Positions 24,346-29,283 of a stretch of 64,000 nucleotides of DNA are shown here, one piece after another. Under the pieces are notes generated by a model. It was given only the letters and a program-made list of their open reading frames with translations. It searched no databases and was not told the origin of the DNA. Position numbers and translations under genes: made by a program. The stretch covers positions 1,736,001 through 1,800,000 of the forward strand of contig NC_014654.1 of assembly GCF_000166415.1 (NCBI RefSeq), read 5' to 3'. Every line of letters begins with the position of its first letter. The first letter of the stretch is position 1. This stretch comes from Halanaerobium hydrogeniformans (GTDB taxonomy: Bacteria > Bacillota > Halanaerobiia > Halanaerobiales > Halanaerobiaceae).

Positions 24346-25278
24346 TTAGCGAAATTTTTGACCGGGCTCTAAATCATATCCATTTAAAAAGTCAGATACT
24401 GATAGTTTTTTGGCACCAGCTGGCTGTAGCTTTTTAATAGCTATAACTCCCTCACCAGACTGGACTAAAATTTTATTATTATCAGCCTTTAAAATAAGTC
24501 CTGCTTCTTTATCACTTTGCTGATCAGATATTTCCACCTGCCAGATTTTAATTCTATCCCCTTTAAGATGGGTATATGCACCTGGCCAGGGATTTACTCC
24601 TCTAACTAAGTTATAGATATCTTCTGCACTATTACTCCAATCAATTTCCCCTAGTGATTTATCAATTTTATAGGCAAAAGTTGCTTTATCTTCATCCTGG
24701 CTAATCCTGGGAGCCGTTCCTTTTTTAATATCTTTTAATGTTTTTATAAGAAGCTCAGATCCCTCTTCTGCCAGACGATCATGAAGATCACCAACCGTAT
24801 CATCACGCTTAATTTTAATTTCCTGTTGATAAATTATATCTCCATCATCCCAACCAGGCCCCATGTACATTGTTGTATTACCGGTAATTTTTCGACCATC
24901 GATAATAGCCCGATGAATAGGGCTAGAACCTCTGTATTCTGGTAATAAAGAAGCATGGAGGTTAATACAGCCTTCTTTGGGTAAATCTAACAGCTCTTCA
25001 CTTAGTTTTTGACCAAAAGCTACTACAACAACAAAATCTACCTGAAATGCCCTTAATTTATCTAAAAAAGCTTCTTTGTTAACATTATCACTTTGAAGAA
25101 CAGGTAGTTCTAGGTCCAAAGCGGTTTTTTTAACAGCAGAAAATTGAACTTTCTGCCCTCTTCCTCTTTCTCTATCTGGTTGAGTAACAACTGCAGCAAT
25201 TTCTATCTCCGGATCTGATGCTATTCGTCTTAGTGACGGAACCGCAAAATCGGGTGTACCCATAAAAATAATTTTCAT
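24346..25278 (-). CDS. fmt: Methionyl-tRNA formyltransferase
   Basis: Formylates initiator Met-tRNA with 10-formyl-tetrahydrofolate. The 310-residue product begins IIFMGTPDFAVPSL, and has HASLLPEYRGSSPIHRAI with the catalytic histidine and a GWDDGDI segment with the catalytic aspartate (DDGD instead of the commoner DTGD). A C-terminal tRNA-binding domain with NPWPGAYT follows. Def, which removes the formyl group, is encoded immediately upstream with a 4-bp gap, the classic def-fmt pair. Confidence 0.97.
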   Translation of the reverse strand: MKIIFMGTPDFAVPSLRRIASDPEIEIAAVVTQPDRERGRGQKVQFSAVKKTALDLELPVLQSDNVNKEAFLDKLRAFQVDFVVVVAFGQKLSEELLDLPKEGCINLHASLLPEYRGSSPIHRAIIDGRKITGNTTMYMGPGWDDGDIIYQQEIKIKRDDTVGDLHDRLAEEGSELLIKTLKDIKKGTAPRISQDEDKATFAYKIDKSLGEIDWSNSAEDIYNLVRGVNPWPGAYTHLKGDRIKIWQVEISDQQSDKEAGLILKADNNKILVQSGEGVIAIKKLQPAGAKKLSVSDFLNGYDLEPGQKFR

Positions 25279-25282
25279 ATAA

Positions 25283-25735
25283 TCACTCCACTAATTCTAC
25301 CATTTTATCTATAAATAAAACACCATCTAAATGATCTATTTCATGCTGAATTGCTCTAGCTTCAAATCCTTCAGCAATAATTTCTATTTCTTCTCCATCT
25401 CTATTTAAAGAACTTACCTTAATTTCTTTTGAGCGAATAACTTCACCGGTTCTACCAGGTATGCTCAAGCATCCTTCTTCCATTATCATCTTTCCATTTT
25501 CTTCAATTATTTCAGGATTAATTAAAACAATCTTATTTCCTTCTCCAATATCTATCACTGCAATTCTTTTTAAAATACCTACTTGAGGTGCAGCTAATCC
25601 TACTCCCTCTTCAGCATACATTGTTTCAAACATATTATCTATTAATTGAATGGTTTTCGGTGTAATTTTATCAACCTTTTTGGCTTTACTCCTTAAAACT
25701 GGATCACCAATCTCTCTAAGCTTTAATACAGCCAT
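25283..25735 (-). CDS. def: Peptide deformylase
   Basis: Removes the N-formyl group from nascent proteins using Fe2+ or Zn2+. In 150 residues the three signature motifs are complete: GVGLAAPQ, EGCLSIPG (metal-binding Cys) and QHEIDHLDG (two metal-binding His and catalytic Glu). ATG follows AGGAGGTAG. It is between priA and fmt as in many bacteria. Confidence 0.97.
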   Translation of the reverse strand: MAVLKLREIGDPVLRSKAKKVDKITPKTIQLIDNMFETMYAEEGVGLAAPQVGILKRIAVIDIGEGNKIVLINPEIIEENGKMIMEEGCLSIPGRTGEVIRSKEIKVSSLNRDGEEIEIIAEGFEARAIQHEIDHLDGVLFIDKMVELVE

Positions 25736-25758: not shown

Positions 25759-27987
25759 TTATAACATTTTATATGGATCCACATCAATACGTATCTCTAA
25801 GTTAAACCCAGCATTTTCTATAAACTTTTTTTCTAAAAGCTGAATAATATATTCTCTATTGCGAAAAGAGTTGAATTTTAATATTATCTGCCAGCGGAAT
25901 TTATTTCTAATCTTTTTTATAGCAGCCGGAGCTGCTCCCATTTTGTCTTGATAATATATTTCCCAATTATCAAGAAAATCACTTATTTTTATAGCTTTAT
26001 CAGCAACAGATTTTTCCTCTGCACCCTGAATTATAATATTCAGTAGTCGACAAAAGGGTGGATATTTTCTTTGATTTCTTAATTCAAGTTCTTTTTTATA
26101 AAAATTATCATAATTGCTGTCTGCTGCATTACTAATACTAAAATGTTCCGGGTTAAAACTCTGAATAATAAATTCACTTTCTTTTTCTTTTAGCAGTAAT
26201 GATTTTAATTCGCTTAAAAGTTGAAAAGTATTTTCTGCTGCTCTAAAATCAGAACTATTTAAAGCTGTATCGGCAGAAATAACCCCCAGTAAATTTAAAT
26301 TATCGTAATAATCATGTTTAATGATCAGCTGTGTACCAACCAGTATATCAATTTTATCATTTTTAAAATCTTTAAATATTTTTTCAGTATTATCTTTTAA
26401 ATCACTATCTATTCTTTTTATAACAGCATTTTGGTAAATTTCTTTTAACTGTTTTACAATATTTTCGGTTCCAATTCCTGCTGGTGAAACAAAAGAACTC
26501 CCGCATTCAGGACAGTTATCAGGTATATATTTCTGGCTTCCACAATAATGACAGGATAATTTGTGATCAGCTTTATGATAATGAAGTGAAATATCACAAT
26601 TATCACATTTGATAACATTTCCGCATTTTTTACATATTACATAATTTCCATAGCCACGTCTGTTTAAAAATAACAATGTTTTTTGCTTATTTTCTAAATT
26701 ATTTAGGATTTTATCTTTAAGCTCACGACTTAAATCACTCAAATTGCCAGCTTCTACCTCTTTTTTGAGATCAACTAACTGAGTTTTTATTTGCCGATCA
26801 TTTTCTTTAGCAAGCTTTAATGATTTGTATTTCTTTTGCTCGGCAAAATATTTGCTTTCTATCGAAGGAAAAGCAGCTTCTAATACCAAAACTGCTCCAT
26901 TTTCTTTTTGTCTTCTTACAGCAACCTGCCTTGCATGATAAAGAGGATGTTCCTGTTGTTTATAACTGTGATTATTTTCTTCTAGAATTATAATCAACTT
27001 CAAATTATTAAAAGGAGCAAAAATTGCAGATCTTGCCCCAACTACAATAGAGACCTCTGATCTTTGAATTCTCCTCCAGGCATCAAAACGTTCTCCCTGA
27101 CTGAGTTGGCTGTGGAGAAGAGCAATTTTGTCCTGATAGTAATTTTTAAGCTTTTTTATTAAAACTAAATCTTTTTCTATTTCTGGGACTAAAATTATAA
27201 CATCATTTGCTTCTGCAATTGTTTTATCTATTAATTTTCTTAAAAATATAAATTTACGTTTTTGAAAACTGCTTTCTAATAAAAATTTATCTGCTTTTGA
27301 ATTAACAATCGAAGTGAAAATATTTTCTATTAATTTATGATCTTCTGCAATTAATTTACTAGTGTTCTCCTCTACTGGATATTTAGCTTGATTTATTTCT
27401 GGTATTCTATCTATATAATCATCATATAACTCCAGTAAATCTTTTTCTATTAAACGATATACAGTTTGCTTTGAAGTTTTTGCATGTTCTGCTGCTTTTT
27501 TTAAAGTAATAATTTTATCTTTATTTGCTAAAAGATAGGAATAAATCTGGTATTGTTTGGGTGCTCTTTTATCAAGCTTATCTAAAATTTTCTGATGATC
27601 ATTTATTTCTGCTTTTAGTTTAATATATTTAAGCTTTTTTCTGCCAACCTTTTTTTCTGTAATTCCAGGCGGTAGAGCAGCTTTTATAACCTGAATCAAA
27701 TAGGAATGATAATAAGCAGCTATCCATCTAAATAAGCTTAACATTTTTTTATCAAAAAATGGCTTAGAATAAATTAAGTCATTAACTTTTTTGATTTTCG
27801 AATGAGCTATTTCTGCTTCAGCATCAACCTCTGTCACAAAAGCAGCAACTTTACGATTAGAAAAAGGAACTTTTATTAAATGACCCACCTCAAGTATGTT
27901 TTCTAATTCTGCTGGAATTAAATAATCAAATTCTTTATTCAATTTTCTTACCGGTAAATCTACTATAGCTTTTACTATTTTCCCCAT
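25759..27987 (-). CDS. priA: PriA homologue with degenerate helicase motifs
   Basis: Primosomal protein that recognises stalled forks and restarts replication. The 742 residues keep the N-terminal DNA-binding domain, a winged-helix region (about 140-190), eight zinc-binding cysteines in four C-x2-C pairs (452-495) and the C-terminal domain. The motor looks dead: the Walker A region reads ESSFQKRKF (238-246) instead of HGVTGSGKT; DEEH has become LEEN (335-338); GSATPS has become EAAFPS (370-375); and QVAGRAGR has become ELKSLLLK (593-600). The reading frame is uninterrupted and the neighbours (coaBC upstream beyond lgt/metK; def-fmt downstream) are canonical. It may act as a structural loader without ATPase. 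Confidence 0.92.
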   Translation of the reverse strand: MGKIVKAIVDLPVRKLNKEFDYLIPAELENILEVGHLIKVPFSNRKVAAFVTEVDAEAEIAHSKIKKVNDLIYSKPFFDKKMLSLFRWIAAYYHSYLIQVIKAALPPGITEKKVGRKKLKYIKLKAEINDHQKILDKLDKRAPKQYQIYSYLLANKDKIITLKKAAEHAKTSKQTVYRLIEKDLLELYDDYIDRIPEINQAKYPVEENTSKLIAEDHKLIENIFTSIVNSKADKFLLESSFQKRKFIFLRKLIDKTIAEANDVIILVPEIEKDLVLIKKLKNYYQDKIALLHSQLSQGERFDAWRRIQRSEVSIVVGARSAIFAPFNNLKLIIILEENNHSYKQQEHPLYHARQVAVRRQKENGAVLVLEAAFPSIESKYFAEQKKYKSLKLAKENDRQIKTQLVDLKKEVEAGNLSDLSRELKDKILNNLENKQKTLLFLNRRGYGNYVICKKCGNVIKCDNCDISLHYHKADHKLSCHYCGSQKYIPDNCPECGSSFVSPAGIGTENIVKQLKEIYQNAVIKRIDSDLKDNTEKIFKDFKNDKIDILVGTQLIIKHDYYDNLNLLGVISADTALNSSDFRAAENTFQLLSELKSLLLKEKESEFIIQSFNPEHFSISNAADSNYDNFYKKELELRNQRKYPPFCRLLNIIIQGAEEKSVADKAIKISDFLDNWEIYYQDKMGAAPAAIKKIRNKFRWQIILKFNSFRNREYIIQLLEKKFIENAGFNLEIRIDVDPYKML

Positions 27988-28069: not shown

Positions 28070-29254
28070 TTATTCTAAACCTGCTTTTTTTCTTAAACTT
28101 TTAACCCGGTCGGTTTTTTCCCAACTTAAATCAAGATCATGTCTACCAAAATGTCCATAGGCAGCAACCTGTTTATAGATAGGACTACGTAAATTTAAGG
28201 TTTTTATAATTTGAGCAGGTCTTAAATCAAATTCTTGATCTACAATTTCAGTTAATCTTTCATCTTCAATTATTCCTGTGCCAAAAGTATCAACCATCAA
28301 TGAAAGTGGTTCTGCAACTCCAATTGCATAAGAAATCTGCACTTCACACTTTTTGGCTAGTTTGGCAGCTACAACATTTTTAGCAATATAACGAGCTGCA
28401 TATGATGCTGACCGGTCAACTTTGGTCGGATCTTTACCAGAAAATGCACCACCACCATGGCGGGAGGTGCCGCCATATGTATCTACAATAATTTTTCTAC
28501 CTGTTAAACCTGAATCTCCATTTGGACCACCTATAACAAATCTTCCGGTTGGATTTATTAAAAATTTACTTTGTTCTTTTAATAAGTCAGCTGGAATTAT
28601 TGCTTTAATTACATGCTCAATGATATCTTTTCTGATTTTTTTCTGGCTAATATCTGGATGATGTTGAGAAGAAACTACAACTTTATCAACATAGAGGGGG
28701 GTATTTCCCTCATAAGCTACAGTAACCTGGGTCTTACCATCAGGTCTCAAATAATCTAAGCTACCATCTTTTCTTACTTCAGCCAATCTTCTGGCTAATT
28801 TGTGAGCAAGCATAATTGGTAAAGGCATCAATTCCTCTGTCTCATCAGAAGCATAACCAAACATTAAGCCTTGATCTCCAGCTCCTAGCTCTGATTGGGA
28901 CTTGCCCTCTTTTTCTTCTAAAGAATGGTCTACTCCTAATGCAATATCTCCAGATTGCTCATCAATAGCAGTTAAAACTGCACATGTTTCACCATCAAAC
29001 CCATATTTAGCCCTTGTATAACCAATATCATTTACTGTTTTTCGAGCAATTTTAGTTAAATCTACATAACATGATGTAGTAATTTCTCCCGAAATTAAAA
29101 TCAAGCCAGTAGTTACAAAAGTTTCACAGGCTACTCTTGCATCAGGATCTTTAGCTAAGATCGCATCTAAAACGGCATCAGAGATTTGATCAGCTAACTT
29201 ATCAGGGTGTCCTTCAGTTACTGATTCAGAAGTAAATAAATATTTTTTTGTCAT
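28070..29254 (-). CDS. metK: S-adenosylmethionine synthetase
   Basis: Makes S-adenosylmethionine from methionine and ATP. From the ATG at 29254 the product is 394 residues. Signatures are [28 protein letters not shown] and [18 protein letters not shown] prefer this ATG over one nine codons upstream because it follows GAAAGGTG at proper distance. Placement between lgt and priA is unusual relative to Bacillus, where coaBC and priA adjoin. The 90-bp upstream gap is too short for a known SAM riboswitch. Confidence 0.97.
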
Positions 29255-29283
29255 ATTATCACCTTTCATATAGCTTAACAAAA

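Follow-up and report, generated by a model that had tools for sequence, protein, structure and literature searches.

Does a PriA protein in which the ATP motifs of the helicase motor have been replaced still serve replication restart, and if so, by what means? The question is raised by a gene in a 64,000-nt stretch of the Halanaerobium hydrogeniformans genome (NC_014654.1, positions 1,736,001–1,800,000; hereafter the window), for which a first-pass annotation made from the sequence alone proposed a PriA with an inactive motor. In E. coli, the PriA motor is needed in some pathways only, and actinobacterial PriA is annotated as probably lacking helicase activity. In B. subtilis, DnaC is loaded by PriA, DnaD, DnaB and DnaI, and the need for the PriA motor has been described as unsettled (PMC10804225).

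The priA locus and its copy number

The ORF at positions 25759–27987 of the window (minus strand) encodes 742 aa in an uninterrupted frame, as the first-pass annotation had read it, and its product was classed as a putative PriA pseudohelicase from the ORF itself, its family matches and its single copy. It scored 471 bits against the priA equivalog model TIGR00595 (cut-off 230), twice the threshold, and matched the 3′-binding domain (3′BD) at residues 8–106 (PF17764, 89 bits, cut-off 22.7), the zinc ribbon (PF18319, 36.6 bits, cut-off 26) and the PriA C-terminal domain (PF18074, 61.7 bits, cut-off 26.9). Matches to the Pfam helicase models were weak, indicating degeneration of the motor. The nearest named relative is Halanaerobium polyolivorans (78 % identity).

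Upstream of priA lies metK (S-adenosylmethionine synthetase, 28070–29281), and downstream lie def (peptide deformylase, 25283–25735) and fmt (methionyl-tRNA formyltransferase, 24346–25278), all three on the minus strand and all conserved neighbours. The gene order lgt-metK-priA-def-fmt-Zn peptidase-rsmB-rlmN does not differ between family members with a motor-dead and those with a canonical PriA, G012 being among the latter. Given the PriA families matched over their cut-offs and the conserved gene order, 25759–27987 is, as judged from sequence, the orthologous priA, and it is the only one of the cell.

The first-pass annotation had pointed to a second, intact priA as the finding that would speak against its reading; a true PriA helicase would then be encoded elsewhere in the genome, with the copy in the window reduced to an accessory paralogue. 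We searched the complete genome, a single contig of 2,613,117 bases, in three ways and found none: there is one match to the 3′BD, one match to PriA and no match to the canonical PriA motif I at E≤1e-5. The congener G007, also a single contig, likewise returned no second PriA by PriA or motif-I search. Within the sensitivity of the searches, these results, and the synteny of the locus with canonical priA, make an accessory paralogue next to impossible.

Erosion of the ATP motifs

We aligned the protein with 29 relatives and assessed retention at the 171 columns that are invariant in 19 canonical relatives. The first-pass annotation had reported four replaced motifs (ESSFQKRKF at residues 238–246, LEEN at 335–338, EAAFPS at 370–375 and ELKSLLLK at 593–600), and each was recovered at the residues given. 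On the minus strand, the degenerate motif I/Walker A (residues 238–249, 27241–27276) reads ESSFQKRKFIFL in place of HGVTGSGKTEVY; the degenerate motif II (residues 333–340, 26968–26991) reads IILEENNH in place of IIDEEHEN; the degenerate motif III (residues 368–375, 26863–26886) reads VLEAAFPS in place of VLGSATPS; and motif VI with its arginine finger (residues 586–603, 26179–26232) is lost, with NTFQLLSELKSLLLKEKE replacing RTFQLLTQVAGRTGRGDK. Two further losses extend the earlier list. Motif V (residues 547–562, 26302–26349) is degenerate, with DILVGTQLIIKHDYYD replacing DILVGTQMxAKGHDYP (KGHDYP to KHDYYD), and the glutamine of the Q motif (residue 216, 27340–27342) is replaced by aspartate, at a position that is Q in every canonical relative and D, E or L in H. 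hydrogeniformans and its congeners. The signature of an active helicase (Walker A GxTGSGKT, DEEH, SATP, KGHD of motif V and QVAGRxGR of motif VI) is thus absent.

The remaining parts of the protein are better preserved, again with all coordinates on the minus strand. Motif Ia is largely retained, and so are motif Ib (GARSA), which reads VVGARSAIF (residues 315–323, 27019–27045), and motif IV (FLNRRG), which reads LLFLNRRGYG (residues 438–447, 26647–26676); the loop after motif II, SYKQQEHPLYHARQV (residues 341–355, 26923–26967), is largely kept. The 3′BD, the fork and 3′-end binding domain (27670–27966), is kept, as are the zinc region (residues 452–495, 26503–26634), with all eight cysteines in place (452, 455, 461, 464, 479, 482, 492 and 495), and the C-terminal domain (residues 644–738, 25774–26058). 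The claim that the DNA-binding domain, the zinc cysteines and the C-terminus survive is therefore borne out by the Pfam matches, the counts of invariant residues and the fold prediction.

Those counts separate the two kinds of position. Among the 10 motor-dead Halanaerobium sequences, the invariant ATP-motif residues kept in all 10 number 2 of 11 in motif I, 2 of 6 in motif II, 2 of 5 in motif III, 4 of 11 in motif V and 0 of 12 in motif VI, while DNA-binding or structural invariants are kept at 10 of 11 positions in the 3′BD, 10 of 13 in motif Ib, 11 of 17 in the zinc region (including all eight Cys) and 18 of 22 in the C-terminal domain. Sequence comparison thus points to a specific pattern of erosion, in which positions predicted to contact ATP are mostly gone and those predicted to contact DNA or to support the structure are mostly retained. 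Some replacements have themselves become fixed, with E370, L594 and K595 present in all 10 sequences. An AF2 model of the protein (pLDDT 86.4, pTM 0.84) predicts a full PriA fold, and its best Foldseek matches are the PriA structures 6dgd and 4nl4 (TM 0.72–0.82).

An active ATPase or helicase working through a diverged, non-canonical nucleotide site could draw on three features of the protein: K245 aligns under the Walker lysine, Glu337 of the former DEEH is retained and the helicase-lobe fold is predicted to be intact overall. Around K245, however, the Gly/Ser/Gly/Thr context is gone, and where the lysine would be, the congeners carry mostly R, and also D. All at once, the protein has lost the glutamine of the Q motif, the glycines and Thr of the P-loop, the Walker B Asp, motif III, the Gly, His and Asp of motif V and the arginines of motif VI, whereas in E. 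coli PriA the single substitution K230R abolishes ATPase activity, according to the account in PMC4504706. We consider a surviving non-canonical site very unlikely. The inactive motor proposed by the first-pass annotation is backed by the motif losses in the alignment, and a dead motor is, on this sequence evidence, almost certain.

Distribution of motor loss and constraint on the gene

The first-pass annotation had asked whether relatives share the losses. They do: each of the other nine Halanaerobium species genomes with a full-length PriA has lost the motor motifs, and named species among the independently deposited genomes show the same state (H. polyolivorans, H. congolense, H. kushneri, H. 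saccharolyticum in three records and H. salsuginis). Loss of identical motifs in congeners and in independently deposited genomes excludes chance or sequencing error. G013 (Halanaerobium sp. MA284_MarDTE_T2), placed by GTDB in a sister genus of the family, is intermediate; its PriA lacks Walker A and motif VI but keeps the glutamine of the Q motif, with DQEH still standing in place of DEEH and PTPS as motif III. Canonical motifs are found in G012, which represents a third genus within this family, and in the 18 order- and class-level relatives of the alignment. In the trees, the motor-dead Halanaerobium sequences and G013 are separated from the other sequences by a branch supported at 100/100. 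Since all full-length congeners are affected, G013 is intermediate and G012 is canonical, the sequences indicate that the motor was lost once inside the family. The state of G013 and its placement in the tree further suggest an order of loss, in which Walker A and motif VI were probably lost first and motifs II and III later.

Could the gene simply be decaying, with its frame not yet broken? In favour of decay, the rate of PriA evolution on the Halanaerobium lineage is roughly double that of its neighbours, and the dN/dS of priA ranks first or near the top among the neighbouring genes. On a fixed tree, the path from the G012 split to H. hydrogeniformans measures 2.96 lengths of the G012 branch for PriA and 1.49 for a concatenate of seven neighbour proteins; from these two ratios, PriA alone sped up after the loss, about two-fold relative to its neighbours. 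Against decay, priA frames are intact and free of stops in all full-length members of this deeply diverged genus (50–78 % identity). The dN/dS of priA, at 0.12–0.19 in four congener pairs, lies far below 1, although above that of most neighbour genes. It is low in every domain of the protein and stands at 0.10–0.13 for the former ATP-motif codons, both estimates being rough as several dS values are near saturation. The retention of the eight Cys and of most 3′BD and C-terminal invariants, and the fixation of E370, L594 and K595 at old ATP positions, likewise argue against a pseudogene, which we regard as scarcely credible. The acceleration after the loss could also reflect a changed role, which we take up below.

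The phylum was then considered as a whole, using a 44-residue profile of the canonical motif I against 398 genomes. The motif was matched in 391, and the seven without a match comprised four Halanaerobiaceae, one member of family f10 and two of f104. As the profile is blind to mild changes, such as the K-to-R change of Deinococcus-Thermus, counts of loss based on it are minima. Family f10, from the same class, is a second motor-dead group, in which all six sequences are affected (loci L079, L081, L082, L084, L085 and L087, from genomes G040, G043, G045, G047, G049 and G051, respectively), with motif II reading HNEE, HQEE, NNEE or HNED and the eight zinc Cys kept. Degenerate PriAs over the TIGR00595 cut-off, each with 8/8 Cys, were also found in f104 (G266, L099; G397, L102) and in f107 (G286, L097); the G286 protein, a weak match in the motif-I scan, has a shortened Walker A loop and a nearly intact motif II (DDEH). 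G271, which also matched the motif weakly, was not counted as a loss, as it returned no PriA over the cut-off and the gene is taken to be missing from an incomplete assembly. The PriA tree requires at least three separate losses in the phylum (Halanaerobiaceae, f10 and f104/f107), with f104 and f107 scored as one because their joining may be long-branch attraction.

Outside the phylum, two Nitrospirae metagenome-assembled genomes (MAGs) each carry a full-length PriA in which Walker A, DEEH and motif VI are missing and eight zinc Cys are present, in open frames of 634 and 643 aa (L046 from 5509 and L047 from 726, respectively). On balance, we lean towards the view that PriA motor loss is recurrent in nature, having occurred at least three times in the phylum, in the Nitrospirae MAGs and in Deinococcus-Thermus, that the motor domain then becomes a selected scaffold with new conserved residues at the ATP site and that restart by PriA is motor-independent in these lineages.

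A candidate scaffold for replication restart

The partners of PriA in the Gram-positive type of helicase loading are encoded in H. hydrogeniformans. The replicative helicase (GASTSMGKT), a DnaI-like AAA+ loader (GPIGSGKS) and a DnaD/DnaB-type protein share one operon (L057), which is conserved through the family and in G017; the P-loops of the loader and the helicase are intact, and PF07261, the DnaD/DnaB-type domain, is matched in H. hydrogeniformans and its congeners. By sequence, the loading chain therefore looks complete except for the PriA motor. Since the loader and the replicative helicase retain their P-loops, restart overall would not be ATP-independent. Within the operon, the DnaD/DnaB-like loader (L057:8300–9418) is 43 % identical to its G012 counterpart, compared with 58 % for the DnaI-like loader and 82 % for the helicase, and it has one PF07261 domain in Halanaerobium and two matches in G012.

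Our preferred reading, to which we give a probability of roughly 0.8, is that the only PriA of the cell is a pseudohelicase that acts as an ATP-independent fork-recognition scaffold, recruiting the loader chain and leaving unwinding to other helicases. In this scheme, abandoned forks and D-loops would probably be recognized by the 3′BD, winged-helix, zinc and C-terminal regions of PriA, which would then recruit the DnaD/DnaB-like protein, the DnaI-like AAA+ loader and the DnaC/DnaB replicative helicase in turn, with neither ATP hydrolysis by PriA nor unwinding of the nascent lagging strand. Where unwinding is required, it would be left to other helicases such as RecG and PcrA, which are intact and over cut-off in H. 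hydrogeniformans, with RadA or RecD2 as candidates from the Bacillus literature; RadA has been put forward for lagging-strand removal in Bacillus (PMC10804225). We infer all three elements of this reading (absent ATPase activity, a surviving restart role and compensation by other helicases) and, likewise, the earlier suggestion that restart is 'ATP-independent at the PriA step'.

Three candidate correlates of motor loss were rejected. Gain or loss of RecG follows no pattern with PriA state across f1, f10, f104 and G286: RecG is over cut-off in all tested members of f1 and f10 and just below it in f104, and G286 (f107) has an Mfd-like match only, leaving its RecG uncertain. An extra Rep/PcrA-like helicase fares no better, as a second UvrD-like paralogue occurs in many congeners and is missing from H. 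hydrogeniformans itself (G000), G010 and G013. Nor does the type of loader track the loss, PF07261 being present, and also absent, in both motor-dead and canonical genomes. In G007, a single-contig congener of ~2.3 Mb, this second UvrD/Rep-like paralogue (G007:C1:1999720–2001786) carries three in-frame stops.

Alternatively, replication restart might do without PriA, the protein having moved to other work, for instance protecting forks, acting in a recombination checkpoint or serving as an SSB hub. The acceleration after the loss and the new conserved residues at former ATP-motif positions would fit such a change, but the entire fork-binding and zinc scaffold and the loader operon have been retained, and in B. 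subtilis no route of restart other than PriA-DnaD-DnaB has been described (PMC13220808). We consider a different job unlikely, while still granting it some weight, and continue with PriA as a motor-free restart scaffold.

For such a scaffold there is precedent, as the first-pass annotation noted: D. radiodurans PriA is a described pseudohelicase that neither hydrolyses ATP nor unwinds forks and that binds ssDNA, forks and DnaB (PMC4504706). As in H. hydrogeniformans, its motifs I and II are degenerate, its DNA-binding and zinc regions are kept, the condition is lineage-wide, there extending to the whole Deinococcus-Thermus phylum, and no second PriA is claimed (PMC4504706). The Halanaerobium case differs from it in the wider erosion (Q motif and motifs I, II, III, V and VI), in being a phylogenetically independent loss whose family also contains an intermediate and a canonical relative, and in the DnaD-like/DnaI loader pair of H. 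hydrogeniformans, PMC4504706 noting only the absence of PriB and DnaT in D. radiodurans. D. radiodurans PriA has been characterized biochemically, that of H. hydrogeniformans by sequence.

The likeness to the PriA-DnaD-DnaB-DnaI primosome of B. subtilis and S. aureus lies in an orthologous PriA and in the adjacent PF07261 protein, DnaI-like loader and DnaC/DnaB helicase. The PriAs of those species are active 3′–5′ ATPases/helicases (PMC10804225), whereas Halanaerobium lacks the motor motifs, and one DnaD/DnaB-like protein was found in H. hydrogeniformans rather than two. A motor-dead PriA is also known from E. coli priA300 (PriA K230R), which, according to work cited in PMC4504706, can still assemble primosomes; cells with ATPase-dead PriA are viable according to the same source. 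Unlike the natural, multi-motif and genus-wide state of Halanaerobium, priA300 is a laboratory point mutation in an otherwise intact E. coli background with PriB/PriC.

The PriA pseudohelicase is thus already known as a kind; what is unreported is how far the erosion has gone, its graded series within one family and its independent recurrence. The first-pass annotation knew of no report for this lineage, and our search of the open-access literature similarly found neither a report on Halanaerobium PriA nor a paper on repeated loss of the PriA motor.

A naturally motor-free lineage with Bacillus-like loading, together with the intermediate G013 and the canonical relative G012 in one family, offers a direct test of the need for the motor, and the Halanaerobium PriAs offer proteins in which the scaffold role is separated from the motor role. 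That the same loss appears separately in several bacterial lineages suggests that the PriA motor can be dispensable in nature, and its repeated, independent loss would mean that the motor can be shed while the protein stays.
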